Source of the DNA: Halichondria panicea
Lineage: Eukaryota; Porifera; Demospongiae; Suberitida; Halichondriidae
Length of the DNA stretch: 64,000 nucleotides
NCBI RefSeq assembly: GCF_963675165.1
Contig: NC_087388.1
Location: forward strand, 1,342,800-1,406,799
Direction of reading: 5' to 3'
Shown here one piece after another: positions 23,633-60,069 of this stretch. Positions within the stretch are counted from its first letter, which is position 1; each line of letters begins with the position of its first letter. The position numbers were made by a program, and so were the translations under genes. A model generated the notes under the pieces. It did not search any database, was not told the DNA's origin, and saw nothing but the letters and a program-made list of their open reading frames with translations.

Positions 23633-26600
23633 ATGGCTGATGACAGCCAATCAAGTGATACTCTCCTGCACACTGCTGCAAGCTGTGGGGACTTAGATGA
23701 GGTCAGAGAGCTGTTGATAACAAAGCAATATGAAGTGGACGTCAGAAACTCACACAACCAAACATCTCTTCATCTCGCATGTGCTAATGGTCATCTCGAT
23801 ACGGTTTGGACACTAGCCAATGACTTTGGTGCTGACATAGGAGCTATTGATAATGGTGGTAATACACCATTGCTCTTTGCTGCTAAGAACAAACATGTGC
23901 AAATAATTATCATGTTGATCCTATTATCACTGTGTGGTAAACACCTCTCCAACGGAGACTACGTGTCCTGTTCCTATAGCCGTAGTGAGATGGATTCTCA
24001 TCATGTTAAAATCTTTGAGGATGTCCTCTTTGACGTTTATAATGATTCTGAAACTGTGAAGAAAACTATGCATCTGATAAGCAAATTCTTTGTTCAATTT
24101 AAGGATTATAATGATGATGGCTTTATTACATTGTTTGTAGCTGCATCACTCGGTCTCAAAGACTTTATTAATCGTTTAGTTACTGATAATGAAGCGGACC
24201 TGAATATTAGGGGTTTCAATGGCTTGTCTATTCTCCACTGTGCCTGCTTTGGAGGACATGTACTGCTCGTGGAAAATCTTATTTCAAAACATCATATGCA
24301 CTATTCTGTGAAAGATAACAATGGGAAGTCAATTTTGATGTACGCAGCATTCAAGGGGGCTCCCTATTCATGCAATGGTGGTCACGTAGAACTGATTGAT
24401 AAACTGGTGATGAAATATGGCCTCGATCCTGCAGATGGAGATGAAAATGATAACACACCTCTACATATTGCAGCCAATAATGGACATGTTGAAGCAGTGA
24501 GACATCTGATCAGTAAGCACAGTGCTGACATTGATATCACCAATAAACAAAACAAAACTCCATTGATGCTAGCTGCGCTGAATGGTCATGTGAATGTTTT
24601 GGATGCGTTAGTCAAAGAATTCAACAGCAGTTGTCATGTCCGAGGTTACAATAGCCGCACTCTCCTTCACTATGCATGTCATGGTGGCCATATAGAACTG
24701 ATAGACAAACTAGTGTTGGAATATGACCTCGATCCTGCAGAACGAGATAGTAACAATAAGACACCTTTACATATTGCAGCAATGTTCGGACATGTTGAAA
24801 CAGTGAGACACCTGATCAGTAAGCATAGCGCTGATGTTGATTGCACTGATATTAAAAGCAATACACCATTGATGCTGGCTGCACGGAGGGGTCATTCACA
24901 TGTTTTGGATGCGTTAGTCAAAGAATTCAACAGCAGTTGTCATGTCCGAGGTTACAATAGCCGCACTCTCCTTCACTATGCATGCTATGGTGGTCATGTA
25001 GAACTGATAGACAAACTGGTGAAGGAGTATGGCCTCAATGTCGAAGATAGAGATGAAAGAGGAAACACACCTCTACATATTGCAGCCATGTTTGGACATG
25101 TTGAAGCAGTGAGACACCTGATCAGTAAACACAGTGCTGATATTGATTGCACTAATAACGAAAACAACACTCCATTGATGCTAGCTGCACGGAGGGATCA
25201 TACGCATGTTTTGGATGCGTTAGTTAAAGAATTAAAAAGCAATCACCATTTTCTTCACTTTGCATGCAAGCGTGGCCATATAAAACTAATAGATCAACTA
25301 GTGGGGAAATGTGGCCTCAATATCAGAGATAGAGATAATGATGAAAACACACCTCTACATATTGCAGCAAAAGCAGGCCATGTTGAAGCAGTGAGACACC
25401 TGATCAACAAGCACAGTGCTGATATTGATTGCATTGATAATCGAAACAATACACCGTTGATGCTAGCTGCATTGGGTGGTCATGTGCATGTTTTGGATGC
25501 ATTAATTAAAGAATTTAAGAGCAGTTATCTTGTCCGAGGATATAATGGTCGCACTCTCCTTCACTTTGCATGCTACGATGGTCATATACAACTGATAGAC
25601 AAAATGGTGATGGAATATAGCCTTGATCCTGCAGATAGAGATAATGATGGAAACACACCTCTACATATTGCAGCCATGTTTGGACATGTTGAAACAGTGA
25701 TCCACCTGATCAGTAAGTACAATGCTAATATTTATTGCACTAATAATGAGAACAATACTCCATTGGTACTAGCTACACTGAGCGGCAATAGGCAAGTTTT
25801 GGATGCGTTAGTCAAAGAATTAAAAAGTAGTCATCATTTCCTTCACTTTGCGTGTGAGCGTGGCCATATAAAACTGATAAACGAACTTCTGAAATGCGGC
25901 CTCAATATCAGTGATAGAGATAATGATGAAAACACACCTCTGCATATTGCAGCAAAAGCAGGCCATGTTGAAGCAGTGAGACACCTCATCAGCAAGCACA
26001 GTGCTGATATTGATAGCATTGATAATCGAAACAATACACCGTTGATGCTAGCTGCATTGGGTGGTCATGTGCATGTTTTGGATGCGTTAATTAAAGAATT
26101 CAAGAGCAGTTATCTTGTTCGAGGATATAATGATTCAACTCTTCTTCATCAAGCATGCTACGATGGTCATACAGAACTGATAGACAAACTGCTGGAATAT
26201 GGTCTTGATCCTGCAGATAGAGATAACAGTGGAAACACACCTCTACACATAGCAGCCATGTTCGGACATGTTGAAGCAGTGAGACACCTGATCAGTAAGG
26301 ACAGGTCTGATATTGATTGCACCAATAATGAGAACAATACACCATTGATGCTAGCTGTACTGGGGGGTCATACACATGTTTTTGACGCGTTAGTCAAAAA
26401 ATTCGAAGGCAGTCGTCATCATGTCCGAGGTTACACTCTCCTTCACTCTGCGTGTGAGCATGGCCATGTAGAACTAATAGACGGACTGGTGAAATGGGGC
26501 CTCAATCCTGCAGATGGAGATAATGATGGAAACACACCTCTGCATATTGCAGCAAAGGCAGGACATGTTGAAGCAGTGAGACACCTGATTAATAATTACA

Positions 26601-29600
26601 AAGCTAAAATCGATTGCAAAAATAATCAGAACGATACACCATTGATGATAGCTGCACTCACAGGGAATACGCATGTTTTGGATGTGTTAATCAACGAATT
26701 CAATAGTAGTTGTCATGTCCTCGGATACAATGGTCATACTCTCCTTCACTATGCATGCTATGGTGGCCATATAAAACTGATAGACAAACTGGTAGTGAAA
26801 TATGGCCTCAATCCAAAAGATAGAACTGTTAATGGTACTCTCCTTCATTATGTATGCCATGTTGGCCATATAAAAGTAATACAAAAACTGGTGGTGGAAT
26901 ATGGCCTCGATCCCGCAGATAGAAATATTAATGGAAACACACCTCTACATATTGCAGCCATGTCCGGACACGTTGAAGCAGTTAAACTCCTGATCAGTGA
27001 GCATAGCGCTGATGTTGATTGCACTAATATTGAGGATGATACTCCATTGATGCTGGCTGCACTGAGGGGTCATACGCATGTGTTGGAAACGTTAGTCAAA
27101 GAATACAAAGGCAGTTGTCATCATGTCCGAGGTTATACTCTCCTTCACTCTGCGTGCGAGCGTGGCCATATAAAACTGATAGACAAACTGGTGGTAAACT
27201 ATAGCTTTGATCTCAGTGATAGAGATAATGATGGAAACACACCTCTGCATATTGCAGCAAAGGCAGGACATGTTAAAGCAGTGAGATACATGATTAATAA
27301 TTACAGCCTTGTTATCGATTGCATAAATAGTAAGAATAATACACCATTGATGCTGGCTTGCACTGACTGGTAAGACACATGTTGTGGATGAGTTAGTCAA
27401 AGAAATTGAAAGCAGTTGTAATGTCCGAGGATACAATAATCGCACTCTCCTTCATCAAGCATGCCATGGTGGCCATATAGAACTGGTAGACAAACTGGTT
27501 AAGGAATATGGCCTTGATCCTGCAGATAGAGATAATGATGGAAACACACCTCTACATATTGCAGCCATGAAAGGACATATTAACACCGTGCAACACCTGA
27601 TCAGTGAGCACAGTGCTGATATTGATTGCACTAATAATAGCAACCAAACTCCATTCGAGATAGCTATGCTCAACAATCATATGTGTGTTTTGGATGCGTT
27701 AGTCGAAAAATTTAACGAAAGTCATCATGTCCGAGGTTATACTGTCCTTCACTATGCATGTGATCGTGGCCTTAAAACACTATTAGACAAACTGGTGATG
27801 GAATATCACCTCCTCAAGCTCACAGATAGAGATGATGATGGAAATACACCTCTACATATTGCAGCCATGAAAGGACATGTTGAAACAGTGAGACACTTGA
27901 TTATTCAACACAAAGTTGAAACCAATATCACTAACAATGTTAACTCTACCCCATTGTGTTTAGCTGCTCAAGATGGTCATGAGATTGTGATACATGCCCT
28001 AACTAAAGAGTTTAATTGCAGCCCACATGTTAGAGGCTACAATGGTCAAACTCTACTTCATTATGCTTGCCAAAATGGTCATATAGAAACTTTAAACATT
28101 ATAATATCAAAATATAAGTTGGATCCAACAATTAGAGACAACGATGGGAACACACCTCTGCATATTTTATGTCGTACATCGCATACTGAAGAAGAAAAGC
28201 TGAGAACAATTCTTTTCCAGTACTGGACAGTGTTTCAAGTTAATAATGATGGCAACACACCTCTTCACACAGCAACTCGATATGGGCAAGTTCATTGTGC
28301 ACGCTTACTATTGCAGAAATGCAATGCTCCCCTTTTTGTGCGAAATAAAGTCGGTAATACCGCCCTTGATTTAGCTAAAGCTCAGAGAAGCCAAGAAATT
28401 GTTACAATTTTCAAAAGTCATAATCCTGAGATCCAATCAATCTATCGGCAACTAGATAAACTTGCTCAACAAGAGTTTAGTGGTGAAAAAAACTTCACCA
28501 GAATATTTGTTGTAGGTCATCCAGGTGCAGGAAAATCCACGCTTGTTGAAACTATCAAAACAGAAGGTTTGATCAGCTACTTCAGCACATCAACTGTTGC
28601 CCCTCACACTGCAGGCATTGTTCCAAGTACTTATGACAGTAGTGCTTATGGAAGAATGATACTCTATGATTTTGCTGGTGATTCCGAGTACTATTCCTCA
28701 CATGCTGCAATTATGGAGTCAATCAACACATCAAAAGGAAGCAATATATATTTGATACTTTGTGATTTGAGTAAAGGCGAAGAAGCTGCTGTCACTAAAT
28801 ACAGCTACTGGCTTTCATTTCTATCATACAATATTAAGCAATTCTCAAACACTATTATCTTACCAGTGGGAAGCCATGCTGATGTAATCAACAAAAGGTC
28901 AGTAGAACAAGCGTTACGTGTGCTTGACAGCGTATCCCAAAAGTTCTGTAGCAGCTCCGAGATTGATGATTTACACATAGAACAAAGTGTTGCTCTTGAT
29001 TGTCGTAGACGAGGGGCTGTAGTTAATAACATAAAGGAACTCGCAAAGAAATTCTCTAATTTAGTATCCCTTTCCCCGGAGACAAGCACACTTCTGGGAT
29101 TGTTGAAGAAAGACTTTGAACATGTTCCGGCTTGCAAAGTGAGCCTCCTTATCTCACACATAGAAGATACTGGAATTCCCCTTCCACTAAATTCTTCATC
29201 ACTATACACTCTCATAAGAGAGTTACATGATTTGGGTCTGCTAATGGTGATAGAGAGAGAAGGGGACTCCATTGAGAACCATACAATCATTCTCAAGATA
29301 TCAACCCTCACATCGGATGTACACAATAAACTGTTTTCAACGTCTGCTAAAGCAGACCTCACCAAACATATTGATCAACTCAAGCTCAGCGTAGGCATTG
29401 TTCCAGAATCACTACTGGAGAGAGTACTGCCAGAGTATATTACAAAAGAATGTCTACTTAAGCTGCAGTACTGTCAAGAAATCGAGAATTTGTACGTGGA
29501 AGAGGACCACACTCTTTCTCAACTCACTTCTGAGACACTACCAGCAGAGGGTTCCACTCAAGAGAAATCTCATCTATTTTTCCCCGCTCTTTGTGATCTC

Positions 29601-30912
29601 AAACTTGAGGAAATTCAATGGCCTAAATCCGAAGGTAATAAAGTTACTTTGGGATGGTATGCTAAATGTGATGGTGACAGATTTGATTTCTTCCCAACAC
29701 GATTTCTTCATGTGCTTATTGTTCACCTTTCTCACAACTTTGCACTGAAGCAAGGCCTGCCCACAAGACACAGACTTTCCACTACAGCTTCAGATCCTTT
29801 GATGGCTGATGTATATGCTGCCAATCCTAGCTGTCATGTCTGGTCGACTGGTCTACATTGGCTTATGAAGAATGGAGTGGAGGTATTTGTCGATATACCT
29901 AAAGACGCTGATAGTAAAGAACTGATTGTACTAGCAAGGAGTGACGTCCGAAATCAAGCCAAGTGTTCTGAAACTCTGCATCAAGTTATTCAAAAGGTAG
30001 TCAAAGCAAAAATGGAGTTTTGTGCTGGTATAGTGCCAACTGTTTACCTTCTTGATCCGAACGACCTCAAGGATGAACCTTTTACGAATGCTTTGAGTTC
30101 ATCTAAATATGCTCTTAGTGATATCGAAGAAGCACTAGCAGAAGGCACTGAGGAAGTTGCCGATAAAGACAGACATTGTTTCTCCACTCCAATCAAAGAA
30201 TGGATCAGCCCAACAAGATGGGCCATATCTTACTGGAGTAAGTTTCACACACACATTATACCCACGTATTTCATTTATTATTGTACTACAGATTTGTTTT
30301 TTCCAATGGATACCTTCTTGGTTCATTCTGCTTTGCAAGAAGTAAGTAGTGCTCAATGGAAACTGCTAGGAATGAGTCTTCCGATCACCTGGAACAAATT
30401 AGATGACATTGAGAATAATGACTCATCATACCCTGGTGACATTGCTAAGAAAGAAGAAGTAATTCGACTGTGGATGTCTCAAGAACCCACCTGGATAGTG
30501 TTGGTAGACGCTCTCAGTCAATCTGCATATGGATGGTCACAGAATTCAAGTCAAATCTCACAAGAGCACAGTAAGTACCTCACAATCATTATAGCTATAA
30601 TGCTCCGCTTATTCATGCGTGCATTATATAGATGTGCCTCTACAAAAGAAAAGTTTAGAAAAAGATTCATCTCTTCATCCCGACGAGGACTTTCTCCAAT
30701 CATTTGCTGCCATCATTGGCTCTCGTTGGCAGTGTCTTGCTTTCCCCCTCTCCCTCACTTCTAAAGACATTGTGAGCATCAAGGGAGAGACAAGAGGAGC
30801 AGAGCCGACCAGACAAGCACTCGTTATGCTGCAGAAATGGGCAGCCAGGGAGACGGCAACTTATGGTCAGTTGAGAGAGAGACTCCGTACACTCTCAGTA
30901 TTTCATATCTGA
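23633..30912 (+). CDS. Gene A: ankyrin array, Roc-like GTPase, COR-like region and tandem Death domains; one-base frameshift
   Basis: Exons 23633-30237, 30292-30570 and 30632-30912; introns of 54 and 61 bp with GTAAGT/AG borders. The summed exon length is one base over a multiple of three. The excess is at 27356-27360 (GGCTTGCACTG where sister modules have GCTGCACTG), which ends the first frame at 27373. Ignoring it gives 2387 aa. Residues 1-1590 hold about 38 ankyrin repeats in groups of three. P-loop GHPGAGKS near 1626, DFAG, then VGSHAD (Roco-type G4). A winged-helix-like COR segment (LIRELHDLGLL) follows. Exon 2 encodes Death domain 1 and exon 3 Death domain 2. The start was chosen by alignment with gene B. 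Roco proteins with ankyrin and Death domains (DAPK1) act in cytoplasmic death and stress signalling. It is either a recent pseudogene or carries a sequence error. Confidence 0.85.
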
Positions 30913-31169
30913 GAAAATTTATAGTATCATGCATCACAGCACAAATTTTATGTGTAGCTACGTTAATGCACCTGCTGCATGTAACTGTTTTATCACTTTA
31001 TTGTGTCAATGAACTTCAGAACTCATGCTTCACCATATAATTTTCTTACTATTGCACTTTTAATCTACATTTTCCTACACTGCCTTGCTAATATTAAACA
31101 TCTTCGCATCTTTTTGTTAGCCTTTTATCAATTCATTAGTTAATTAATGCTTCCCCCAAGTAATTTTTG
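30913..31169. other. 3' flank of gene A, conserved with gene B
   Basis: Almost identical to 60070-60330 behind gene B. Probably 3' UTR and the start of the duplicated tail. No clear AATAAA signal was noted. Confidence 0.5.
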
Positions 31170-34100
31170 TACTTTTCAGCTAGAGTTTTAGTGTTGAACA
31201 AAATGTCTGTAACAACTCCAAGATTGATGATTTAAACGAGGAGCTGTGGATGACATAAAGAACTACTATAAGAATAATCATCCTCCATCAGACTTTCCCT
31301 CTCTCCTGGGATTTTTGAAAAAAGACTTTGAATACATTCCAGCTTGCAAAGTAAGCCTCCTTATCTCTCACATAGAAGATACTGAAATTCGGCTCACACC
31401 CTAAGACAGTTACTCGCATCAAATGTACAAAGTCTGCTAAAGCGGACGTCACCAATTACATCGATCAACTCCAGCTCAGCGTAGGCATATACAGAATCGT
31501 TATACTGCATGGAAAAGTACTAACAGAGTATACCACAAGCTGCAGTATACTGCCATGAAATTGAGAATTTGTACGTGGAGGACCACAGTCTTTCTCAACT
31601 CACTTCAGAACCAGTACCAACTGAGAGTTCCACTAAAGAGAAATCTCGCCTGAAATTCCGCTCACACCCTAAGAGAGTTACTCATATCAGATGTACCCAT
31701 AATCGTATGTTTTCAAATATTGTCAAAGTCTGCTAAATTACATCGATTAACTCAGGCTCAGTGTGGTCAAGATTTCCTAGAGCGACGTCTGCAGATACAA
31801 GTGTTTAAGTTAGGGCTAGCCAAGAGCATCCATTATGCACGCATGCTCATCAGGCAAAGGCACATCAGGTAAGTCAGTCTGGTATGTGTTTGTGCCATGT
31901 ATTAATTATTACAGAATCGCTTGCTGGAAAAAAACTACCAGAATACACTACAAGTTGCAGTACTGCTGAGAATTTGTATGTGGAAGAGGACCATGCACAG
32001 TTCTTCTCAACTCACTTCAGAACCAGTACTAACTGTGAGTGCCACTATAAAGAGAAATCTCGTCTGCTTTTTTTGATCTCTGGGTCAAAGGTGACAAAAT
32101 TATCCAGGATTTTATGCTAAATGTGATGTTGGCAGATTTGACTATTTCCTAATAATTTCTTTATCTCATTTCTCTCACAGCTTTTCATGAAAACAAAGCT
32201 TGCCAACAAGCCGCAGTTCTCTATAATAACTGAATCTTCTTCTTCTTTGATTGCAGAGGTCCAATTAGTACTATACTTGGTATGCAGGCTTATGAATGGA
32301 GTGGATGTATTCGTTGATATGCCTAAAGACACTGATAGGCTAATAGTGAGAAGTGGCAATAAAACATAAAATGTGCTAACACTCTGCATCTATCTAGTTA
32401 TTCAAAAACGAACAGAATATTATGGAAACAAAATTGATTTCTGTACTGCCTTCTGTTTACCTTCTTGATCCAAGCTATCTCAAGGATGAAACTTTTACGG
32501 AGGCTTTATAGAAATGGACCTAAATATGCTCTAAGAGATATTGATAAATCATTAGCAGAAGGAACTAAGTGACTCATGGAAAGAAAGTCATTACTTCTCT
32601 ATTCTGATGAAAGATTGGGTCATCCCAAAAGATGGACTACTGGAGTAAGTTTCAAGCACGCGCTCACATGCACACACCACCTGTAAATGTTTTATTTGTT
32701 GATATATAAAATTATACCCTTAAAGATACAACTCCTAATGATGCGCAGGCACTGATAACGTTACCGATAAAGACAGAAAATGCTCCACCGCAGTCTCCAA
32801 CTAAAAATTGGATCAGCTCAGGTGATATTCTACTGGAGTAAGCAGCATTCAAATGCACCATCTAATTTGTCCATGAGCTTAATTTTTTCATTGTACAGAT
32901 TTGTTGGTTCCGAGGGATGAGTCCCTGATTGACTCTGCTTTAAACTGCTTTGGAGAATATTTCAATCCATTGGAATAACGAAGCATCCTTCCCTGGTGAT
33001 AATTATTTCCAGACCGTCCGATTTTCCCCAGAGACAAACTCTCTTCTGGGATTGTTGAAAACAACTTTGACTACATTCCAGCTTGTAAAGGAAGCCTCCT
33101 TATCTCTCACATAGAAGATACTGATATTCCGCTCACACCCTAAGAGAGTTACTTGCATCAGATGTACCTATAATCATATATTGTCAAAGTCTGCTAAAGC
33201 GGATGTCACCAATTACATCGATCAACTCAAGCTCAGCGTAGTCATAAATTATTACAGAATCGCTGCTGCATGGAAAAAGTACTACCAGAATAATTATACC
33301 ACAAGCTGCAGTACTGCCACGAATTTGACAATTTGTACGTGGAAGAGAACCACAGTCTCAACTCACTTCAGAACCAGTACCAACTAAGAGTGCCACTAAA
33401 GAGAAATCTCGTCTGCTTTTTTATCTCTGGGTCAAAGGTGACAAGATTACCCAGGATTTTATGCTAAATGTGATGTTGACAGATTTGACTATTTCCTAAC
33501 GATTTCTTACTTTTCATGAAAACTAAACTTCCCAACAGTTGCAAGCAGATAACTTCTCATTTTCTGATTCTTCTACTGCTAATAATTATTTGATTCCAGA
33601 GATCCAATTATGCTGCCAATCCTCGCTGTCATGTGTGGTCAACTGGTCTACATTGGCTTATGAAGAACGGAGTGGAGGTATTTGTCGATATGCCTATAGA
33701 CGCTGATAGTGATAGCGAGAAGTGGCAACAAAAATTTATTTCTGTACTGGTATAGATATTGCCTTCTGTTTACCTTCTTGATCCGAGCAGAAATGCACCT
33801 AAATATACTCTAAGAGTATTAATAAAGCATTGAAAGAACTAAGCAAGTCATGGGTAAAGACAATGCTTCTCTATACTCCGATGAAAGATTGGGTCATCCC
33901 AAAAGATAGACTACATCTTACTGGAGTAAGTTTCAAGCACGCACTCACATGCTCACATGCACACACCACCTGTAAATGTTTTATTTGTTGTTTCCAATAT
34001 AGATATATATAGATCTACCCAGATACAACTCCTAATGATGCGCAGGCACTGAAAATGCCTCACTTCAATCAAAGATTGGATCAGCTCAGGTGACATTCTA

Positions 34101-34830
34101 CTGGAGTAAGCAGCATTCAAACCCAACATTTAATTTATGAGCTTAATTATTTCCTTGTACACATTTGTTTTTCCGATGGATGAGTCCCTGATTGACTCTG
34201 CTTTGAACTGCTTACAGGGATGAATACCCATGCATTGGAATAACTATTTAAAATGAAACATCATGATATTGCCAAATAGTATAATTCGACTGGAAAGTCT
34301 CAAGAACCCACCTGGAAAATATTAGTAGAGGTTCTCGCAGTCAACCCACAGGATTGTCAACAAAACAAGTCAAATCTCACACGAGCACAGTAAGTACACT
34401 ACCGTATAGCGGGTATATTTCGCGGGTATATTTTAAGGGTATAAACTTTCGCGGAATGACTGTTAGAAAGGTTTTGGTGGAATAGCAGTCGTTTAGTGGG
34501 TATATTTAGTTAGCCACGAACATTTATATACCCTCGAAATATACCCGCTATATAATAATACGTTATTATAATTATAGCTATATTCATTCATTCTATTGTA
34601 GACGTGCTTCTACACAGGAAAAGCATTATTGAAAGCAATCATCTGCATGTCCGTCCTGACAATTCCAATCATTTTCTGCCATCATTGGCTCTTGATGGCA
34701 GTGTCTTACTTCTCCCTTCTCCCTCACTTCTGAAGACATTGTGAGCATCAAAAGAGAGAGGAGAGACAAGAGGAGCAGAGCTGACCAGACAAGCACTCGT
34801 CATGCTGCATGGTCATGCACTTTTCATGTT
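31170..34830 (+). pseudogene. Two decayed copies of the 3' half of the ankyrin-Roco-Death gene
   Basis: Copy 1 (about 31170-33000) and copy 2 (about 33000-34830) each follow the gene A exon order from the late GTPase/COR region (GGGATTTTTGAAAAAAGACT; AAGCCTCCTTATCTC) through the segment ending ACTGGAGTAAG and the first Death-domain exon. Copy 2 also retains a second Death-domain exon remnant at 34600-34810. Stops, frameshifts and deletions are frequent. No ankyrin or P-loop part is present. In copy 1 the stretch at about 31385-31520 appears twice in diverged form (again at 31650). The same arrangement follows gene B. Confidence 0.85.
34400..34562. mobile_element. MITE with TAGCGGGTATATTTCG inverted ends
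   Basis: Ends TAGCGGGTATATTTCG and CGAAATATACCCGCTATA, interior non-coding. It sits in the intron position of the decayed copy 2, between the two Death-domain remnants. The paralogous tail carries it at the same place (63.65-63.82 kb), so it entered before the segmental duplication. Confidence 0.8.
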
Positions 34831-35590: not shown

Positions 35591-35591
35591 C

Positions 35592-36003: not shown

Positions 36004-36057
36004 TTTTTTCCTGCCCCTTTTCCAACTGCCATTCCTCCTCTTATAGAGCCTTGTATA

Positions 36058-40294: not shown

Positions 40295-40353
40295 CTGCAT
40301 AAATAATTATAAGCTATAATTATACGACCAAACATAACAGTACTTTGACTCAC

Positions 40354-42034
40354 AGTTAGTCGATTCTTTGGGCAACCTTGCGGGTGTGAGAGTTTGCTTC
40401 TGTTTCTGTTTCTTTGCTTCTTGCTTCTGAAGTCTCTTCTGCTGAGCTTGTTTCTTCTTAAGTTCCTTCTCAAGCTTCATTTGTTCCTTTTGGTTAATAA
40501 TCTTCAGATTTTCAGAACTTGTTAGCACCCGTCCACTGCCAACTGGCTTAGCTTGTTGGGTGTGCAACTCAGGCACCGTCACTGCAGAAAGACATTTCGT
40601 AACAGCAGTCTGTCGTAGAACACAGCTGTTTTTAGCAGGACTCTTAGCAGGGGAGTCACCATCAGAAGAGTCTGTTTCTTCAACACTTGCATCATGTAGA
40701 TGTATAGATCTTGATGGACTGCAGTTGTAGAGTGGTATGAAATTAAGGCCTGTTTCCTGTGCCAAGCTTGAAACCTGATCCTTAAAATCAGCAACAGGTA
40801 GCCTAATTGCCTCTCGATTAAAAGGGACTATGCCTGTGCATCGAAATCCACTTATGGCATTAGCTGGGGTCATTGATGCAAACCATGCTTTGTTGAACAG
40901 CCGAGAAAACTCGTATCGGGTCACCATTTTTCCACCACTTTGTGCCATATAACTATGACATTCCTTCCTCCAGGCACGCTTCAGTGGCCCAAAACAGCCC
41001 TTATCAAGGGGTTGTGTTAAATGCGTTGTATTCGGCGGGAGACAGAAGAGTATTACCTGCTCCGAAGCTGCAAGTCTCACAGTACTCGGCTGGTAATGGG
41101 TAGAATGGCCATCCATTATTAACAACACAGGACGCACTGGAGATGCATTAGGCAAAAATTGGCACTTAAACCAGTCTTCAAACAACACACTATCAATCCA
41201 TCCATTTTTTGATGTTCCATACCTAGTTCCTGGTACTTCTCCATAAGTCCAAGCTGTTTTAATGTTCATTCTGTCAAATATAATCATAGGAGGAATGATT
41301 TGACCTGTTGCACTGACAGCTGAAACACATGTAAGCTGTGCTTTATTTCCGGTTGAGATTTTTATTGGGTGTTTTACACCTCTGACAGTGATGATTTTTG
41401 GAGGTGCAGGGTCGAGGGGCATGCCTGTTTCGTCCATGTTGTAGATTTGGGATGGGCAATCGAGTAAATCATTCTCTGTCAGCGTCTGCTCCAACAAGTC
41501 ATAATAGCAAGAAATTACTTGGGGAGAACTTGCTACAGCCCTTGAGTATGATAATGGCTCTGCAGCACGTACAGCTAGTTCACCATGCCTCTTCTTAAAC
41601 GAGGTCCACCACCCATCAGTGACTACGGCAGTTCGAAGTCCTTTTGTTTGAACAATGTTACGAACCAGTGCCAAAACTTCCTGTTTGGATTTTACATAGC
41701 CCATTGATGCACAACCACAGAGAAAACTAACAAGTTCATTCTCTTCCTCATCAGTGAGGAGCTTTGGTGGGCCACTTCTCGCCCCAAACTTAACTCGTCC
41801 ACTGACGCGATCCTGAAGAGTTGACTTAGGTACTCCATATGCCTCGGCAGCATCTCGTACTGAGAGCCCATCTTCAATATGTGCTAAGTATGCTTTATAG
41901 AGGGTACTTTCAGTCCATGACTTGTAAGAGGTTGGTCGTTTCGCAACTGTGGGTATATAAGACGATCGCGGTGGCGAGAGAGTAAAAGTTCTTCGTGCGA
42001 CAAACACACGGTCATTCAAGCTGAGCTGAGCCAT
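40354..42034 (-). CDS. pogo-like DDE transposase, main exon
   Basis: About 560 residues from the ATG at 42034; the frame extends upstream, but this Met begins a typical N-terminus. Residues 40-110 contain a psq/CENP-B-like helix-turn-helix (SVRDAAEAYGVPKSTLQDRV) that would bind the terminal repeats. A CENP-B-type second DNA-binding domain follows (VVTDGWWTSFKKRHGELAVR). The DDE_1 catalytic domain shows YNMDETG, LLIMDGHSTH and TQPLDKGCFGPLK, with Asp at each catalytic position. The C-terminal 100 residues include Lys/Gln/Glu-rich coiled coil. The exon ends at a GTGAGT 5' splice site; reading on into the intron gives the longer open frame ending at 40307. No frameshift or internal stop is seen, so the exon may still be functional. 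Confidence 0.88.
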
Positions 42035-42360
42035 CAAACAACTGCAAACAACAAAAATATGCATATTAAAAACCAAAGGAATACTTTGTATCCTGTGCCT
42101 TATACCCACAACAGCAGGTTCTTGCAATTAGCCTACCACAGGTAAAGTGGCTGGGCATGAGACTATGTACGTTTAAATGTATGTGCAGAATAGCTAGCAC
42201 TATATTTCTATTCAAGGGGCATACTTTTACACACGTGCCTGGCCTTAGGTGTGCTGGCATGCCAATCACATGCCCCTTTACAGGCTAAACTACACATATG
42301 GCCTATTACAAAGCTCTAGGCTTGAATTTGAAATTATATTCTCCGTTCCAATGCCTAAGA

Positions 42361-47114: not shown

Positions 47115-47119
47115 GATAA

Positions 47120-49700: not shown

Positions 49701-49932
49701 TCTCTTTGTTAGCTACAAAAGTCTGAAAAGAGCTGTAATGCTGTGCTGCTATAGCCATTGCGAACTTTAACCTATTACAGATGCAGGGGCGGACTCAGGA
49801 ATCTTGATGGGGAAAGCTAATTATTATACTAAAAAAATCATCTGCTTTTCAAGCCTATAGCTAGCTACTTTGCAACAAATCACGATGTTTTTCCTGCATG
49901 ACTCATCAATAATAATTGTTCATGCTCAGTTA

Positions 49933-50859: not shown

Positions 50860-51470
50860 ATAAACTGGGTGTGGCCATGACAATGTAATATGGTGCATGT
50901 ATGCAGTGAGTTAATAGCTAGCTCTACATTCTATCCTTCAGACTTGTCATCAAGGCCAGGAGGGTGCTCAAGCCTCCAAAGCTCCCACTGGATCCTTCAC
51001 TGACGGATACACCCTTTTTCTGCGCATGTGCTGCAGCATTCAAAGATGCGTAACTACAACGGCTGAATTTCGGTAGCCCTACAGAATAGTAATTTAAATA
51101 CTTGGAAGGTTATCAAAACATGCATCGCACATTACTCAACTGCTGTTAATAACAGAGTCCACTAGTAAATACTATAATTATGCCGGGTGTATATACGGGC
51201 TTCCGTAAAAATTATTAGATTTCTGATAATAAAATATAATGTGGGCCAGTAGCTATAAGTGATCCTGAGTCCTGAGTTAGTCGTGAAGCTTGTCACAGAC
51301 CTGCTTTGGTTATCCCAGACGTTTCTGGTTTTATCCATGCATCCATTCATGCAATCGTCCCCATGAATCACTTTATGCAATCAAGCTGTTTGAAGTTTGT
51401 TTACTAATCTAACTTTAGAGGGATAATTATATACAGTACCTTTAGTCTGGTATAAACGCAATTTGGTACG
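50860..51470. other. Non-coding stretch
   Basis: No domain-bearing frames and no clear element ends. A short segment near 50935-51000 (GGAGGGTGCTCAAGCCTCC..GGATCCTTCACTG) looks like a decayed repeat terminus. Confidence 0.4.
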
Positions 51471-51474
51471 TGTT

Positions 51475-52111
51475 AGTACATAAATGTAAATATTTTGAGA
51501 TTGGAACATTTCTAAGAAAATATGATGATACCATTGTGTTGGTGAACAAATTATCTAAAACATATCCAAAAATATTTCCATGGCAACCAAAGGTGGTGGG
51601 TATGTGGTGGTTTATAAAACACCAACATTTTTCTATAGTGGACAATCGCTTAGCGATGGAAAGACCAATTGTTTTCGGCTAAGGTATGGAACTTTGGCAC
51701 AACATTCCTGAATAGTTTAGCTAACATATGCATGGTTACGTATAGCTTACATAAGTACACGTACTGATTAATACTCAATTATGGGATATTTTAGGTGCCT
51801 TTTCGCTTAGCGATGGAACTCAAGCAAATTTGTCGGCTAAGGTCTAATTGTTTTTGCACATTAATTGTTGATAAATTTTCTATCTTTTGATACAAAAAAG
51901 TTGTCCAGAAACACTTCAGTTCCGGAGATATTTCATGTTACACATATATTTTACGATCACCCCCATTTTTACCTAAAATGATTTCCCACTACAACAACTT
52001 TTGGGGAAATATTTTCAAATAAGGTTGTAGCTTATTTATTCACCTACACAATGGTATCAGCACAATTTCTTAGAAATGTTCCAATCTTGAGATACATTTA
52101 AGTACAACTAC
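51475..52111. mobile_element. Foldback element with arms of about 70-80 bp
   Basis: The left arm contains GATTGGAACATTTCTAAGAA and ATACCATTGTGTTGGTGAA. The right arm (about 52035-52111) is its reverse complement with scattered mismatches. About 637 bp. The 70-residue frame at 51470-51682 has no recognised domain. CGCTTAGCGATGGAA occurs twice inside (51647 and 51808). Confidence 0.7.
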
Positions 52112-52630
52112 TCACTCTGTGGTTAAATTTACTCTCAAAGCTGAAGGCACTGTAGCATTAGTTACTAGTAGCCCAGAATCCAGCAATCTGATTGGTCAGT
52201 ACAGGGTTTATATTTCCCATATTAACCTGTAAATTCTCATATAAACCTTTAATTTTCATGTTTACAACAACCGTTTATTATTTTGTGTTTTTCAAACATG
52301 TTTTTTGTAGATTGTATTATAAAGAAGTAACTGTTCTGTTTTTGGTAATGACATAAAATTATAATGTTCAGTCGCTGTTACTACGTTGGTTGTTGGATGT
52401 AGGCATAGAGAGATTGATGGTAACGTTGCAGGTACTAAAGTTAAAGTTTGGAGGCATAAATTAACAGCAGTTGGTTTGTGAATTCTGTTGCACTGCCATC
52501 TGTGAGTGATCAGTGTGTGCCAGTATGTTAATTGCATGGCTTTACATTGAGGATGTCTGAAACTGACTGCTTTTGACACTCGAAGTTCTCTTGTAGCTGC
52601 AAACTCCTTCCAAGCTTCGGTGTCCAGTTG
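52112..52630. other. Stretch with an uncharacterised minus-strand frame
   Basis: A minus-strand frame at 52292-52579 (95 aa, Met/His/Cys-rich) lies downstream of the Crypton-like fragment but shows no recognisable motif. It may be decayed continuation of that gene. Confidence 0.3.
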
Positions 52631-52639
52631 TTTCCATTA

Positions 52640-53110
52640 TCATTTGTTCGTCCACTCCAGCGTTGTAGAGTCTAGTAGCAGCAGTTGCACGGATTTCAGG
52701 TCACTCAATAGTGTAATAACATCCCCATGGCACTTTAATCGGTACTCACACCAGTCATTCCATAGCTTGAAGCAGTACTTTGTATCTGAAGTTGTGCTAT
52801 TAGGAATAGCACTCTTCTTCAATTTTTCCATCTCATTTTTTGTTAATTGAGGTGCAAATGCACGCACTTGCTTGGAGGTAGAGGCACTGCTTGAAGAAAG
52901 CTTCATTCACTTTGAGTTAGGTAGAGAAGATTGTGCAGGTTCTGTTGGCTCGTCCAGCTCCTCCTCCTTTCTTTGTTCTGTAGAAAGAGTAGCCAGCTCC
53001 GCCTCCAAATTTATGTTGTAGAGGGCGGAGTCTATGGGCTCGGTCATTATTATGCCGAGTACTTCTTCAGAAAAGAGCTTGTCTAGGCCTAGGTCTTTGT
53101 CCGCGTCCAT
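52640..53110 (-). pseudogene. Crypton/DUF3504-type N-terminal fragment, one in-frame stop
   Basis: From a Met at 53110 the minus strand encodes an acidic leader (DADKDLGLDKLFSEEVLG..), a TGA at 52907-52909, and then in the same frame LTKNEMEKLKKSAIPNSTT, DTKYCFKLWNDWCEYR. The segment 'E..L....IP.ST..DTKYC..LW..W...R' is the helical lead-in seen in Crypton-derived proteins (ZMYM, QRICH1, KCTD1-like DUF3504 proteins). The recombinase-like domain itself was not found before the frame ends at 52640. A single stop and truncation suggest a recent pseudogene or part of a spliced gene. The Met at 53143 is an alternative start. Confidence 0.6.
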
Positions 53111-53153
53111 TCTTTCGGTTAGTTTTTGAAATGAACCTAACAACTAAACTCGT

Positions 53154-53284
53154 TAGATACTGTTTAGTCGGTATCTATGGGAATTATAAGCCCACAGGCA
53201 CTCGTAGTACCCTCGCTTTGCTCGGGATACTACAGCAGGCCTTTGGGCTTATAATTCCCATAGATACCTCCTAAACAGTATCTA
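53154..53284. repeat. 131-bp hairpin upstream of the Crypton-like fragment
   Basis: Arms of about 40 bp, from TAGATACTGTTTAG and GGTATCTATGGGAATTATAA on the left to their reverse complement on the right, with two or three mismatches. The inner sequence forms a second stem (GTAGTA.CCCTCG / CGGG.ATACTAC). It is a minimal foldback element 44 bp upstream of the likely start codon at 53110. Confidence 0.88.
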
Positions 53285-53292
53285 TAACTATT

Positions 53293-54233
53293 ATGTGGCG
53301 GATCCAGTAAAAATGAAAGGGGGGTTCCAAACTAAGAGCTAGCCAGAGATAAAGTAAGGAAAGGGATTGGGAACGGTCAAAAAAATGTGACTATCCGTGA
53401 TGCGCTACGTCATTGACTTTTTTCATCCTTTGTAGCCTCCATTTATATCAAAATCAAGAATTTATGCAGCCTAGTTGATCAACAGAGACACAACAAAACA
53501 AGATATGTAGGTAAAACATCATAGGCTTACAGCAGTGCTTCTTAAAAGGGGCACAAACTAATATAACACTTTCTCGTGTTTTACAGCCTCCATTTTAGTT
53601 ATAAATGTAAAAACATACAAAAGAGATTTAACCAAGAAAATGTATGCAGGCCAGTTCGTCAACATAGACACAAATAAGCAGGATCTGTAGAAAAACATCA
53701 TTTGGCTACGGCAGTGCTTCTTAAAAGGGGGCACAGACCAATAATAAGTTTTCAAGCTCTAGAGCACCACAGTCAATTCTTCCACGCTTGGACTTCACTT
53801 TAAATAAAGCACAGGACACGTGTAGCCTTACTATACGCAATTCTAAAGTCTCATGAGACTAATAACTAACTAAAAGTAATATTACTTCATTCCGCGGGCG
53901 TTGTGCCGGGAAATAATGCGCATCAAGGATGGTTGAGAGGAAATCAATATGAAATCAATGTGAAATGATCACGTGAGTTACTCCCGTTGCCAATCCCTCT
54001 ATTACTCTATCTCTGAGCTAGCTAGCTGCCACGAACAGTCAACTAGCTAGCCTAGGCTAACCTGAACACTCTTTTGGCAGTTGATACATCAAAACAACAG
54101 GTACAATCATTGAATCAAATTACAATAGCTACAAAAACTGATAAATAGCTAGCTGGTGTCATTAAGCCTTCTAAAGTTAACTTTAAAAGGGGGTCAAGGG
54201 ACCCCATGGACCCTCCTCTGGATCCGCCACTGT
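53293..54233. mobile_element. CAGTGGCGGATCC-family element carrying a nested MITE
   Basis: The left end reads GTGGCGGATCCAG with its first bases altered; the right end is CTGGATCCGCCACTG. The internal GCTGCCACGAACAGTCAACT, TTGGCAGTTGATACATC and AGCTACAAAAACTGATA segments match the 4018 copy. Confidence 0.75.
53344..54015. mobile_element. AGAGGGATTGG-family MITE nested in the preceding element
   Basis: Ends CAGAGATAAAGTAAGGAAAG and the reverse-complement-like CTCTATTACTCTATCTCTG. AGCTAGC is repeated at 53337-53343 and 54016-54022, although the AGCT-rich target makes the exact duplication length uncertain. Inside, two similar blocks of about 200 bp (53400-53560 and 53560-53750, GTGCTTCTTAAAAGGGGCAC) form a tandem pair. 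Confidence 0.75.
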
Positions 54234-54631
54234 ATAGTTCAAATAGTAATCAATTGTCCAAAATCGATTCGTAGACAATTGATTTCGACAGATCACTCAC
54301 GTACGTAATATTCAAAAATCTGAAGATTGTTGTCAAAAATCGATTTCATATCTGATACACACAAGTTACGTTCTCTAAATTTTGCAAACGGGTAGTTTCC
54401 TTAGTAACAGCAAATCCTCCTCAGGAGAAACAGAAAGCTGTGTCTGTAATGATCAATCCTGATTTTGTTGTCCGATTTTGCAAGATCATGTTCAGACAGA
54501 GCAACTTAGTATAGTTGTTACGCCGTTTGCGACAATTCACTAACACAATTCAATCGTATATAATTTTGTAAAAGCTACTCTAGTATAACTCTTTCATTAA
54601 TTTTATTAATCAGTGCCGTATAGTTGCGGAA
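54234..54631. other. 5' flank of gene B
   Basis: AT-rich, no recognised promoter element. Only the last 15-20 bases before the ATG resemble the flank of gene A, so the segmental duplication does not extend upstream of the start codon. Confidence 0.5.
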
Positions 54632-57600
54632 ATGACTGATGACAGCCAGTCATGTAATACTCCCCTGCACACTGCTGCAAGCCGTGGGGACTCAGATGAG
54701 GTCAGAGAGCTGTTGAAAACAAAGCAATATGAAGTCAACGTCAGAAACTCACACAACCAAACATCTCTTCATCTTGCATGTGCTAATGGTCATCTCGATA
54801 CGGTTTGGACACTAGCCAATGACTTTGGTGCTGACATAGGAGCTATTGATAATGATGGAAATACACCATTGCTTTTTGCTGCTAAGAACAAACATGTGCA
54901 AATAATTATAATGTTGCTTCTATTATCAATGTGTGGTAGACACCTCTTCAACGGAGACTACTTGTCCTATTACTTTAGCCGTAGTCAAATGGATTCTCAT
55001 CACGTTAAAGTCTTTGAGGATGTCCTCTTCGAGTATTACAATGATTCTGAAGCAGTGGAGAAAACAATGCATCTGATAAGTAAATTCTTTGTTGATTATA
55101 TTCAATTCAAGGATTATAAAGATGATGGCTTTATTGCATTGTTTGTAGCTGCATCACTCGGTCTCAAAGACTTGATTAATCGACTAGTTACACAGAATAA
55201 AGTAGACCTGAATATTAAGGGATTCCATGGCTTGTCTGTTCTCCACGGTGCCTGTTTTGGAGGACACATCCTGCTCATGGAAAATCTTATTTCAGAACAT
55301 CTTACGGACCTTTCTGTTAAGGATACACAAGGGAACTCAGTTTTGCATTACGCAGCTTTAAAGGGGACTCCCTATGCATGCGATGGTGGTCATATAGAAC
55401 TGATAGACAAATTAGTGCTTGAACATGGCCTCAATCCCGCAGATAAAAATAATGATGGTAACACACCTCTACATGTTGCAGCCGTTAAAGGACATGTTGA
55501 AACAGTGAGACACCTGATTAGCAAGCACAGTGCTGATGTTGATTGCACTAATAATCAGAACAGTACTCCATTGATGCAAGCTGCGCTGAATGGTTGTGTG
55601 CATGTTTTGGATATGCTAATCAAAGAATTCAACAGCAGTTGTCATGTCCGAGATGACGATGGTTGTACTCTCCTTCACTATGCATGCGGTGGTGGTCATA
55701 TAGAACTGATAGACAAATTAGTGCTTGAATATGGCCTCAATCCCGCAGATAAAGATAATGATGGTAACACACCTCTACATTTTGCAGTCATTGAAGGACA
55801 TGTTGAAACAGTGAGACACCTGATTAGCAAGCACAGTGCTGATGTTGATTGCACTAACAACTACAACACTACTCCATTGATGTTAGCTGCGCTGAATGGT
55901 CGTGTGCATGTTTTGGATATGCTAATCAAAGAATTCAACAACAGTTGTCATGTTCGAGGTTGCAATGGTTATACTCTCCTTCACTGTGCATGCGATGGTG
56001 GTCATATAGAACTGATAGACAAATTAGTGCTTGAATATGGCCTCGATCTCGCAGATAAAGATAATGATGGTAACACACCTCTACATTTTGCAGCCATTAA
56101 AGGACATGTTGAAACAGTGAGACACCTGATTAGCAAGCACAGTGCTGATATTGATTGCACTGACAACTACAACAATACACCATTGATGCTAGCTGTGTGG
56201 ACTGGTCGTGTGCATGTTTTGGATATGCTAATCAAAGAATTCAACAGCAGTTGTCATGTCCGAGGTGACAATGGTTATACTCTCCTTCACTATGCATGCG
56301 GTGGTGGTCATATAGAACTGATAGACAAATTAGTGCTTGAATATGGACTCAATCCCGCAGATAAAGATAATGATGGTAACACACCTCTACATGTTGCAGC
56401 CATTGCAGGACGTGTTGAAACAGTGAGACACCTGATTAGCAAGCACAGTGCTGATGTTGATTGCACTAATAATCAGAACAATACACCATTGATGGGTGCT
56501 GCGCGGAAGGGTCGTGTGCATGTTTTGGATATGCTAATCAAAGAATTCAACAGCAGTTGTCATGTCCAAGATGACGATGGTTATACTCTCCTTCACTGTG
56601 CATGCGATGGTGGTCATATAGAACTGATAGACAAATTAGTGCTTGAATATGGCCTCAATCCCGCAGATAAAGATAATGATGGTAACACACCTCTACATAT
56701 TGCAGCCTCCATTAAAGGACATGTTGAAACAGTGAGACACCTGATTAGCAAGCACAGTGCTGATGTTGATTGCACTAATAATCAGAACAGTACTCCATTG
56801 ATGCGAGCTGCGCTGAATGGTTGTGTGCATGTTTTGGATATGCTAATCAAAGAATTCAACAGCAGTTGTCATGTCCGAGGTTACAATGGTTATACTCTCC
56901 TTCACTATGCATGCGATGGTGGTCATATAGAACTGATAGACAAATTAGTGCTTGAATATGGCCTCGATCTCGCAGATAAAGATAATGACGGTAACACACC
57001 TCTACATGTTGCAGCCATTAAAGGACATGTTGAAACAGTAAGACTTTTGATTACTCAACACAAAATTGATATTAATATCACTAATAATGTTTACTCTACC
57101 CCATTGTGTTTAGCAGCTGAAGGTGGTCATGAGATCGTGATTCATGCCTTTAGTAAAGAGTTTAAATGCAGCCCACATAACAGAGGCTACAATGGTCAAA
57201 CTCTGCTTCACTATGCTTTCCAAAATGGTCACGTAGAACTATTGTATAAACTGGTAGCTCAATATAAGGTGGATCCAACAATTAGAGACAATGATGGGAA
57301 CACACCTCTACATCTTTTGTGTCCTACACCGCATACTGAAGACATGCTAAGAACAATCCTTTGCAAGTACCAGTACTGGACAGTGTTTCAAGTTAATAAT
57401 AAAGGTAACACCCCTCTTCACACAGCAACTCTATATGGGCAAGCTCATTGTGCACGTTTACTATTGCAGAAGTATGAAGCTCCACTTTTTGTGCGAAATA
57501 CAGATGGGAAGACAGCCCTTGATTTAGCTAAACTTCAGAGAAAACAAGAAATTGTTACAATTTATGAAAATCATACTTCCAAACTCCAGTTAACCTATGA

Positions 57601-60069
57601 GCAACTAGACGAACTTGCTAAACAAGAGTTTACTGGTGAAAAGAACCTCACCAGAATATTTGTTGTAGGGCATCCAGGTGCAGGGAAATCCACGCTTGTT
57701 GAGACTATCAAAAAGGAAGGTTTCTTCAGCTACTTCAGCACATCAACTGTTGCACCTCACACTGCAGGCATTATTCCAAGTACTTATGACAGTAGTTATT
57801 ATGGAAGAATGATACTCTATGATTTTGCTGGTGATTCCGAGTACTACTCCTCACATGCTGCAATTATGGAGTCAATCAACACATCAAAAGGAAGTAATAT
57901 ATATTTGATAGTTTGTGATTTGAGTAAAGGCGAAGAAGCTGCTGCCACTAAATACAGCTACTGGCTTTCATTTCTATCATACAATATTAAGCAATTCTCA
58001 AACATGATTATCCTACCAGTGGGAAGCCACGCTGATGTAATCAACAAAACATCAGTTGAACAAGTGTTACGTGTTCTTGACAGCGTATCCCAAAAGTTCT
58101 GTAGCAGCTCTAAGATTGATGGCTTTCAAATTGAACAAAGTGTTTCTCTTGATTCTCGTAAACGAGGGACTGTAGTAAATGACATAAAAGAACTCACTAA
58201 GAAATTTTCCAATTTGGTATCCCTTTCCCCAGAGACAAGCACACTCTTGGGATTGTTGAAGAAAGACTTTGAACATGTTCCAGCTTGCAAAGTAAGCCTC
58301 CTTATCTCTCACATAGAAGATACTGGAATTCCACTGCCACTAAATTCTTCATCACTATACACTCTCATAAGAGAGTTGCATGATTTGGGTCTGCTAATGA
58401 TGATAGAGAGAGAAGGGGACTCCATTGAGAACCATATAATAATTCTCAAGATATCAACATTCACATCAAATGTACACAAAAAACTCTTTTCAGAGTCTGC
58501 TAAAGCTGACCTCACAGAGCACATTGATCAACTCAAGTTTAGCGTAGGTATAATTCCAGAATCACTACTGGAGAGAGTACTACCAGAGTACATCACAAAA
58601 GAAAGTCTACTGCAGTTGCAGTACTGTCACGAAATTGAAAATTTGTACGTAGAAGAGGACCACACTCTTTCTCAACTCACTTCAGAACCTGTACCAACAG
58701 ATAGTGCCACTAAAGAGAAATCTCATTTATTTTTCCCTGCTCTGTGTGATCTCAAGCTTGACGACATTCAATGGCCTAAATCCGAAGGTGATAAGATTAC
58801 TTTGGGATGGTATGCTAAATGTGATGGTGACAGATTCGACTTCTTTCCAACACGATTTCTTCATGTGCTTATCGTTCACCTCTCTCACAACTTTGCACTA
58901 AAACAAATCCTGCCCACAAGACACAGACTCTCCACTACAGCTTTGATTGCTGAGGTACATGCTGCCAATCCTAGCTGTCATGTCTGGTCGACTGGTCTGC
59001 ATTGGCTTATGAAGAATGGAGTGGAAGTGTTCGTCGATATGCCTAAAGAAGCTGATAGTAAAGAACTGGTTGTACTAGCAAGGAGTGACGTCCGAAATCA
59101 AGCCAAGTGTTCTGAAACTCTGCATCAAGTTATTCAAAAGGTAGTGGAAGCAAAAATGGAGTTCTGTGCTAGTATAGTGCCTACTGTTTACCTTCTTGAT
59201 CCGAGCAACCTCAAAGATGAACCTTTTACGAATGCTTTGAGTTCATCTAAATACGCTCTTAGTGATATCGAAGAAGCACTAGCAGAAGGCACTGAGGAAG
59301 TTGCCGATAAAGACAGGCAATGCTTCTGCACTCCGATCAAAGAATGGATTAGCCCAACAAGATGGGCCATATCTTACTGGAGTAAGTTTCACACACACAT
59401 ATACACGCGTAATTAATTAATTTGTTTGTTATTGTACTACAGATCTGTTTTTTCCAATGAATACCTTCTTGGTTCATTCTGCTTTGCAAGAAGTAAAGGA
59501 TGCTCAATGGAAACTGCTAGGAATGAGTCTTCCGATCCCCTGGAACAAATTAGCTGACATTGAGAATAATGACTCATCATACCCTGGTGACATTGCTAAG
59601 AAAGAAGAAGTAATTCGACTGTGGATGTCTCAAGAACCCACCTGGATAGTGTTGGTAGACGCTCTCAGTCAATCTGCATATGAATGGTCACAGGATTCAA
59701 GTCAAATCTCACAAGAGCACAGTAAGTACCTCACAATCATTAGCTATATTATTTGCTTATTCATGCGTGCATTATATAATAATTATAGATGTGCCTCTAC
59801 AAAAGAAAATTTTAGAAAAAGATTCATCTCTTCGTCCCGACGAGGACTTTCTCCAATCATTTGCTGCCATCATTGGCTCTCGTTGGCAGTGTCTTGCTTT
59901 CCCCCTCTCCCTCACTTCTAAAGACATTGTGAGCATCAAGGGAGAGACAAGAGGAGCAGAGCCGACCAGACAAGCACTCGTCATGCTGCAGAAATGGGCA
60001 GCCAGGGAGACGGCAACTTATGGTCAGTTGAGAGAGAGACTCCGTACACTCTCAGTATTTCATATCTGA
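54632..60069 (+). CDS. Gene B: ankyrin array, Roc-like GTPase, COR-like region and tandem Death domains (intact)
   Basis: Exons 54632-59381, 59443-59721 and 59789-60069 total 5310 bases, 1769 aa. Introns of 61 and 67 bp have GTAAGT/AG borders, both phase 1. Residues 1-250 hold diverged ankyrin repeats; about 250-830 is six nearly identical units of three repeats (GHIELIDKLVLEYGL, DGNTPLH.AA, NNTPLM.AA); then older repeats to about 985. The GTPase starts with GHPGAGKS near 1013, DFAG near 1063 and VGSHAD near 1128. A COR-like segment follows (VPACKVSLLISHIEDTG, LIRELHDLGLLM), then a domain with DFFPTRFLHVLIVHLSHNF. Exon 2 (93 codons) encodes Death domain 1 (QWKLLGMSLPI..LWMSQEPTW); exon 3 encodes Death domain 2 (RWQCLAFPLSL..LQKWAARETATY). 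The architecture resembles DAPK1 without the kinase. No signal peptide or membrane segment is seen, so it is probably cytoplasmic. Confidence 0.9.

Follow-up and report, generated by a model that had tools for sequence, protein, structure and literature searches.

The analyzed window, 64,000 nucleotides of the forward strand of contig NC_087388.1 (C12) of the demosponge Halichondria panicea, corresponds to C12:1342800-1406799 in a genome of 131 Mb. It contains two very large genes on the plus strand, gene A (23633-30912) and gene B (54632-60069), in which a long array of ankyrin repeats is followed by a Roc-like GTPase, a region in the position of a COR domain and two Death domains. All gene models are derived from the genomic sequence of one assembly. 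Gene B is intact: its three exons predict a spliced product of 1769 amino acids, and the two introns (61 bp between exons 1 and 2, 67 bp between exons 2 and 3) both start with GTAAGT in phase 1. Gene A follows the same plan except for a loss of frame within the first exon, and aligns to gene B over 8.1 kb at 89%, a stretch that also takes in the decayed COR and Death remnants behind each gene. One extra base keeps the first exon of gene A, as assembled, from being a single reading frame; the interruption is either a true frameshift or an assembly error. A small intron at the break was considered and set aside: dropping one base restores the repeat register, which makes a frameshift or an assembly error the simpler explanation. 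An earlier note on this DNA had assigned the full ankyrin-Roc-COR-double Death architecture to both genes. The intact gene B bears this out, whereas gene A is frameshifted and the COR part is weak in either case. Since the Death 1 exon of both genes begins and ends in phase 1, its skipping would leave the frame intact, and is predicted to yield a form with one Death domain.

Table 1. Features of the two genes and their surroundings (positions within the window)
Feature	Position	Strand	Basis
Open reading frames (ORFs) of the window	23633-27373, 27351-30764, 54584-59416, 59421-59921		ORF listing confirmed
Gene A exon 1, part 1: opens MADDSQSS..., bulk of the ankyrin array (~30 repeats); frame closes just past the frameshift	23633-27373	+	
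Gene A, frame lost through a single surplus base in the repeat register	27358-27359	+	sequence and frames of both ORFs
Gene A exon 1, part 2: final 8 ankyrin repeats, then Roc-like GTPase and COR-position region; donor GTAAGT at the end	27351-30237	+	
Gene A Roc-like GTPase domain	28500-28883	+	Pfam Roc 22.5 bits, under cut-off
Gene A exon 2 (phase 1-1), encoding Death domain 1	30292-30570	+	profile matches
Gene A exon 3: Death domain 2, SVFHI-stop end	30632-30912	+	profile matches
Decayed COR-like and Death 2 fragments downstream of gene A, many stops	31234-34819	+	
Gene B exon 1: start MTDDSQSC..., 22-repeat ankyrin array, Roc-like GTPase, COR-position region	54632-59381	+	
Gene B tandem units: 306 bp (three repeats, 102 amino acids), 5.5 copies, 92% matches	55372-57044	+	
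Gene B Roc-like GTPase domain	57653-58036	+	25.9 bits whole ORF; 27.8 Roc-COR part alone; cut-off 27
Gene B COR-position region	58226-59263	+	COR-B recognised in distant relatives only
Gene B exon 2 (phase 1-1), encoding Death domain 1	59443-59721	+	profile matches
Gene B exon 3: Death domain 2, SVFHI-stop end	59789-60069	+	profile matches
Decayed COR-like and Death 2 fragments downstream of gene B, many stops	60397-64000	+	

Profile searches recover the ankyrin, Roc and Death parts that the earlier note had proposed. Ankyrin matches are massive, with the Ank_2 profile at E 3.5e-68 to 4.2e-209 across the three large ORFs. A purpose-built hidden Markov model counts 30+8 repeats in gene A and 22 in gene B, correcting the 25-40 repeats of the earlier note. 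In keeping with the earlier suggestion, the GTPase is a Roc domain with the G1, G3 and G4 motifs of the Roco family: the Pfam Roc profile is PF08477, gene B exceeds its cut-off when the Roc-COR part is scanned alone, and gene A stays below it over the whole ORF (Table 1). The top match of the region in PDB is the Roc domain of LRRK2 (E 8.6e-7 with a single sequence, 1.4e-9 with a profile of the family and its relatives), and hhalign to an LRRK-type Roc from the same genome gives 97%. A DFAG/DLAG motif (G3) and a SHAD-type G4 are present in 37 of 37 scanned sequences, and a GxxxxGK[ST] P-loop in 36. Roc is also the best nucleoside triphosphatase (NTPase) family over the P-loop region of gene B; of the NACHT/NB-ARC type that marks NLR/STAND proteins there is a trace of NB-ARC, 12.5 bits over the same P-loop.

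Two separate Death domains are likewise confirmed. Death 2 matches PF00531 at 31.8 and 30.9 bits in the two window genes, over the curated cut-off of 22.6; its own profile finds weak matches in PDB, with the RIPK1 Death domain first at 0.027. Death 1 scores 14.1-18.1 bits in the window genes, under the same cut-off. A profile built from nine Death 1 copies has the FADD Death domain as its first PDB match (E 1.2e-4), followed by RIPK1 Death domains, and eight of the nine copies match PF00531 at E<=0.1 (best 2.3e-5). These matches argue for membership of both domains in the Death fold, and for the arrangement of the DAPK1 group, with ankyrin repeats and a C-terminal Death domain around Roc. The N-terminal calmodulin-dependent kinase of that group is absent from the window ORFs by profile scan, in keeping with the kinase-less architecture proposed before: exon 1 begins at a start codon and leads into ankyrin repeats, although the statement rests on genomic ORFs and an upstream exon is possible. 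A scan with NCBIfam profiles made no useful addition. An all-helical structure model of Death 1 was not counted as evidence, its mean pLDDT being 45.

The region following Roc is harder to place, and several results weigh against reading it as COR. COR profiles find no match in the window proteins, while the LRRK-type genes of the same genome pass both the COR-A and the COR-B profile; hhalign to the LRRK-type COR of this genome returns no match (0.5% probability); and a COR-only alignment gives nothing credible against PDB, the best hit being an unrelated enzyme at E 0.28. Structure models from two-row alignments of the window proteins were unusable for Roc-COR (mean pLDDT 30) as well as for Death 1. 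In favor of COR, the COR-B profile matches 3 of 10 members when relatives are included, with a best E of 2.6e-5, and reaches 15.1-22.7 bits in single-protein scans of four relatives, at a cut-off of 27. The post-Roc region aligns to that of another Roc gene, L052, with 99.7% in hhalign, and the order of the stretches FFPxRFLHVL and CxVWxxGxxW and a helix near the end resembles LRRK-type COR-B, by eye only. COR homology is thus weakly supported: the COR-like region of the earlier note fails to match in the window proteins themselves and has a faint COR-B signal in their relatives.

What had been described as a paralogous pair proves to be part of a much larger family. A search with the Roc-COR region of gene B yields at least 77 matches, among them at least 32 near-full-length copies at 80-100% identity, genes A and B included; these counts are lower bounds, because 72 of 267 first-look candidates were scored. 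Thirty of the near-full-length copies lie within 1.04 Mb (C12:1.039-2.079 Mb), 28 of them on the plus strand, and two are on C6. More distant copies (42-62% identity) are found on C2 and C11, and a separate Roc family of ~750-residue ORFs, which served as a homology bridge only, is spread over C3, C5, C7 and C12 at 26-30% identity (24-30% is also given). The 37 scanned sequences comprise genes A and B, the 30 other near-full-length copies, three C2/C11 relatives and two members of the distant family; six further distant members were added later, and the fourth C2/C11 relative (C2:3384770) and fragmentary copies were left out. Within the stretches examined, Death 1 is seen in 31 of the 37 and Death 2 in 30. 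Full gene models were obtained for 16 of 32 copies, with 1576-4723 amino acids, 16-101 ankyrin repeats (median 43.5) and open first exons of up to 4555 amino acids. One of these genes, C6:4393150-4403100, extends to the end of the examined stretch, its stop lying beyond view.

The outlying members and the wider genome offer some observations of their own. Compared with gene B, the distant relatives L036 (C11) and L038 (C2) retain 72-80% identity in Death 2, 41-56% in Roc-COR and 37-41% in Death 1; the high identity of Death 2 may reflect either strong constraint or a swapping of final exons among loci. The ~750-residue ORFs (L039, L040 and L042-L047, on C3, C5, C7 and C12) combine Roc with the same post-Roc region, and seven of the eight scanned have ankyrin matches. 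Across the whole genome there are at least 148 Death-domain matches (the best 150 of 503 candidates were scored), many of them in C12:1.04-2.08 Mb.

The ankyrin arrays are built from units of ~102 amino acids, each made of three 34-residue repeats. We compared 415 nearly complete units out of 515 unit matches from 34 ORFs. The nearest neighbor is less than 10% divergent for 310 of the 415, and of these close neighbors 182 are in the same array and 128 in another gene. Same-array nearest neighbors are mostly a short distance away, at 1-6 complete units in 153 of 182 cases, and in the gene at C12:1565550 units 2-7 recur as units 8-13 at 0-1% divergence. Such close same-array neighbors indicate that the arrays grow by recent block duplication: they change by duplication of blocks of three-repeat units, and near-identical units occur in different genes as well. 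Repeat number varies sixfold among the 16 full models. Near-identical repeats and repeat-number variation among paralogues, two marks of the high-internal-conservation repeat receptors of fungi, are both present in this family.

The replaced residues are concentrated on the face of the array that would be expected to bind. As the binding face we used positions 2, 3, 5, 13, 14 and 33 of each repeat, which correspond to those of designed ankyrin (DARPin) libraries; the set was not fitted, although the residue table had been seen beforehand. Residue entropy is 2.21 bits in the 17 binding columns and 1.18 bits in the 83 others (Mann-Whitney p 1e-6). Surface positions are usually variable, so substitution rates weigh more than entropy. 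We calculated the ratio of replacement to silent change (pN/pS) on minimum-spanning-tree edges between units, with p-values that treat edges as independent. Up to 3% divergence (127 edges), binding positions have a pN/pS of 1.88 (p 0.002) at kappa 1, against 0.93 for the others and 0.55 for positions 17-30; at kappa 2.5 the values are 2.54 (p 4e-6), 1.14 and 0.71. Up to 6% divergence (194 edges, kappa 1) the ratio is 1.43 versus 0.66, and position 13 alone has 144 replacement and 16 silent changes. Restriction to full-model genes (282 units) leaves the contrast in place, at 2.16 versus 0.85. Codon models were fitted to the two largest groups of near-identical units only: omega at binding positions is 4.1 (2dlnL 44.8, p 2e-11) in 105 units from 11 genes, gene B among them, and 6.0 (p 1.7e-4) in 54 units from three genes, with positions 17-30 at 1.0 and 0.57. 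Amino-acid change as great as that of the binding set occurs in 0.01% of 20,000 random six-position sets (1 in 10,000).

The other domains of the same genes behave differently. At kappa 1 and up to 3% divergence, pN/pS is 0.30 for Roc (10 edges), 0.26 for the COR-like region (10), 0.52 for Death 1 (12) and 0.26 for Death 2 (8); up to 10% the values are 0.29, 0.31, 0.52 and 0.33, and 0.47 for the N-terminal 200 amino acids. All controls remain at or below 0.72 at kappa 2.5. The Roc, COR-like and Death parts are thus constrained, with pN/pS of 0.26-0.52.

Not every test of the binding face agrees, and a number of results weigh against selection there. Up to 10% divergence (239 edges), binding positions fall to 1.06 (kappa 1, p 0.28) against 0.54 elsewhere, or 1.43 at kappa 2.5. 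In 132 greedily chosen disjoint pairs the ratio is 1.08 (bootstrap 0.87-1.44), with 0.64 elsewhere. About 4% of random six-position sets reach the pooled pN/pS. The other positions taken together have an omega of 1.81 (p 1e-4) in the 105-unit group, as opposed to 0.73 in the 54-unit group. Among six genes tested singly the pattern is missing in two, g1192 (1.25 vs 1.66) and the C6 gene (0.75 vs 0.57), and pN/pS beats 95% of random sets in none, whereas the amount of amino-acid change does so in all six. The tests also take units and edges as independent and assume a single tree, an assumption broken by recombination between units. Ratios from all pairs of units are larger but count related pairs many times, so we rely on the spanning-tree and codon models; a 'front' set (3, 5, 10, 13, 14) scores higher, but it was picked post hoc and the claim does not rest on it. 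Together, the tests point to positive selection on the likely binding face, with a ratio not above 1 in the disjoint-pair test. The earlier suggestion of a binding surface that changes by gain and loss of repeats is accordingly strengthened by the sixfold range of repeat number, by block duplication and by change focused on the likely binding face.

Codons at the binding positions also differ in the kind of change. In the disjoint pairs, differences of two or three bases make up 59 of 262 changed codons at these positions and 64 of 628 elsewhere, and silent change is raised at the binding positions as well. The multi-base changes could stem from repeated hits, codon exchange or targeted mutation.

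Similar combinations of features are known from other lineages. The output of fungal repeat NLRs is cell death. Fungal NLRs of high internal conservation (with ANK, TPR or WD40 repeats, as in Podospora anserina) resemble the sponge family in near-identical repeats, variation of repeat number, positively selected concave ankyrin positions and the presence of an NTPase module, and are linked to non-self recognition; those with highly conserved ankyrin arrays display both the variation in repeat number and the selected concave positions (PMC4986451). Among metazoan ankyrin, TPR and WD40 repeats, the same survey found only 0.8% of the sequences it covered to be highly conserved (PMC4986451). The fungal proteins differ in their NACHT or NB-ARC NTPase, C-terminal repeats and fungal effectors, whereas the sponge family has a Roc GTPase, N-terminal repeats in three-repeat units, up to about 100 repeats and two Death domains, and belongs to an animal. 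Brown-algal LRR-ROC-COR proteins (ROCOs), described as candidate immune receptors, share the Roc-family switch on a Roc-COR chassis, a shuffling repeat array and diversifying selection on concave sites (PMC11378527). They have a simple LRR-ROCO plan with one leucine-rich repeat per exon and alternative splicing, whereas the sponge genes hold their ankyrin repeats within a single giant exon and add two Death domains.

In DAPK1, too, ankyrin repeats precede Roc. The likeness extends to Roc-COR followed by a Death domain, but DAPK1 is a single human gene whose product has a kinase in front of Roc-COR and a single Death domain (PMC6337361), unlike a family of at least 32 copies with two Death domains and no kinase found. 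LRRK2 provides the best PDB match of the GTPase domain and differs in its G4 motif (THLD, as opposed to SHAD); neither kinase nor WD40 was found in the sponge family, and no COR match to LRRK-type genes is detectable. Large families with Death-like domains and some ankyrins are described among sponge NLRs (Dysidea, Amphimedon) and the TRADD-N/Death expansions of Amphimedon (PMC12909245, PMC8195603), on a NACHT-LRR or TRADD-N chassis of their own. Neither ankyrin nor Roco is mentioned by name in the main text of the Dysidea paper (PMC12909245). A literature search, mostly of papers outside subscription, found no sponge ankyrin-Roc-Death expansion described. The ankyrin-Roc-double Death combination as a large tandem animal family thus appears to be new, while the strategy of repeat-shuffling receptors is already known from fungal NLRs and brown-algal ROCOs.

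Judged from its architecture, copy number, array turnover and pattern of selection and constraint, the family probably represents a tandemly expanded set of cytosolic recognition receptors with a diversifying ankyrin array, a Roc switch and a Death-domain output. A cytosolic protein (no signal peptide is seen at the N-terminus by eye) would present the long N-terminal ankyrin superhelix and its groove as the recognition part. The array would be remodelled through duplication and loss of three-repeat blocks and exchange between genes, its concave face being under diversifying selection. Ligand binding would alter the nucleotide state or dimerisation of Roc, with Roc and the COR-position region serving for switching or dimerisation, and the twin C-terminal Death domains, one FADD-like and one classical, would nucleate a Death-domain assembly as output. 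From this we infer a sensor role, in immunity or in discrimination of self from non-self.

Sponges host microbial partners at high density and reject tissue of foreign origin, and the same architecture could conceivably recognize kin or allogeneic self in graft or fusion compatibility instead of microbes. Variable arrays in a tandem cluster would be well suited to a polymorphic compatibility locus, and the closest functional parallel, the fungal repeat NLRs, is tied to non-self recognition (PMC4986451); direct cell-surface contact is unlikely, however, because no signal peptide is seen by eye at the N-terminus (MADDSQSC...), and we regard this specific ligand as improbable. About equally improbable is that the proteins are giant cytosolic scaffolds or DAPK1-like housekeeping regulators of cell death, in which the length of the array is of no consequence and drifts through unequal crossing-over. 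DAPK1 likewise joins Roc-COR to a Death domain (PMC6337361), and tandem DNA repeats are able to expand and contract without selection. Neutral turnover, however, does not yield an omega of 4-6 at the binding face alone while the remainder is under purifying selection; at least 32 copies would be unusual for a housekeeping gene, and the kinase profile is unmatched in the ORFs.

Some of the evidence speaks for decay rather than function. Half of the 32 copies, gene A with its frameshift included, are truncated, frameshifted, interrupted by stops or without an exon or start in the stretches examined, which counts against a working repertoire, and decayed COR and Death fragments lie beside both window genes. 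A recent segmental duplication that left most copies functionless is nevertheless the least probable of these alternatives: the 16 full models, with open first exons of up to 4555 amino acids, and the pN/pS of 0.26-0.52 in the Roc, COR-like and Death parts show that many copies are under constraint.

If the receptor reading is correct, an animal evolved the repeat-shuffling strategy with a Roc-Death chassis, and a clustered family with a recognition surface readable from sequence makes intracellular recognition in sponges directly testable. More tentatively, and with the balance somewhat against it, the family might supply giant intracellular receptors whose repertoire varies from one individual to the next, in which arrays of up to about 100 repeats are reshuffled in blocks within and between some 30 tandem genes and read out through Roc and twin Death domains. 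Such a repertoire would parallel, in an animal and on a Roc chassis, the fungal heterokaryon-incompatibility receptors, discriminating microbes or self from non-self without leucine-rich repeats, immunoglobulins or NACHT.

The window includes several features apart from the two genes. Two ORFs on the plus strand (14402-17160) encode a reverse transcriptase, a reverse transcriptase-like (RVT_3) domain and a tyrosine recombinase, presumably a DIRS-type retroelement; the GC-richer ORFs ahead of it (12187-13555) are without a strong match. On the minus strand, an ORF of 606 amino acids (40307-42127) with HTH_psq and DDE_1 domains encodes a transposase, which we take to be of the pogo/Tigger type. 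A 46-bp tandem repeat is present at 5503-5681 in 3.9 copies with 99% matches.

The sponge origin assumed in the earlier note is borne out by silicatein genes elsewhere in the genome. We searched there for the active-site pattern of silicatein, a demosponge enzyme, assuming it to be of the CGASYAF type. Four matches were found, three CGASYAF and one CGSSYAF, and none in the reversed control. One of the matches reads GDCGASYAFSAMGALEG, and the coding stretch beside it matches silicatein alpha in PDB at 6.7e-14, against 8.6e-7 for the next entry, cathepsin S.

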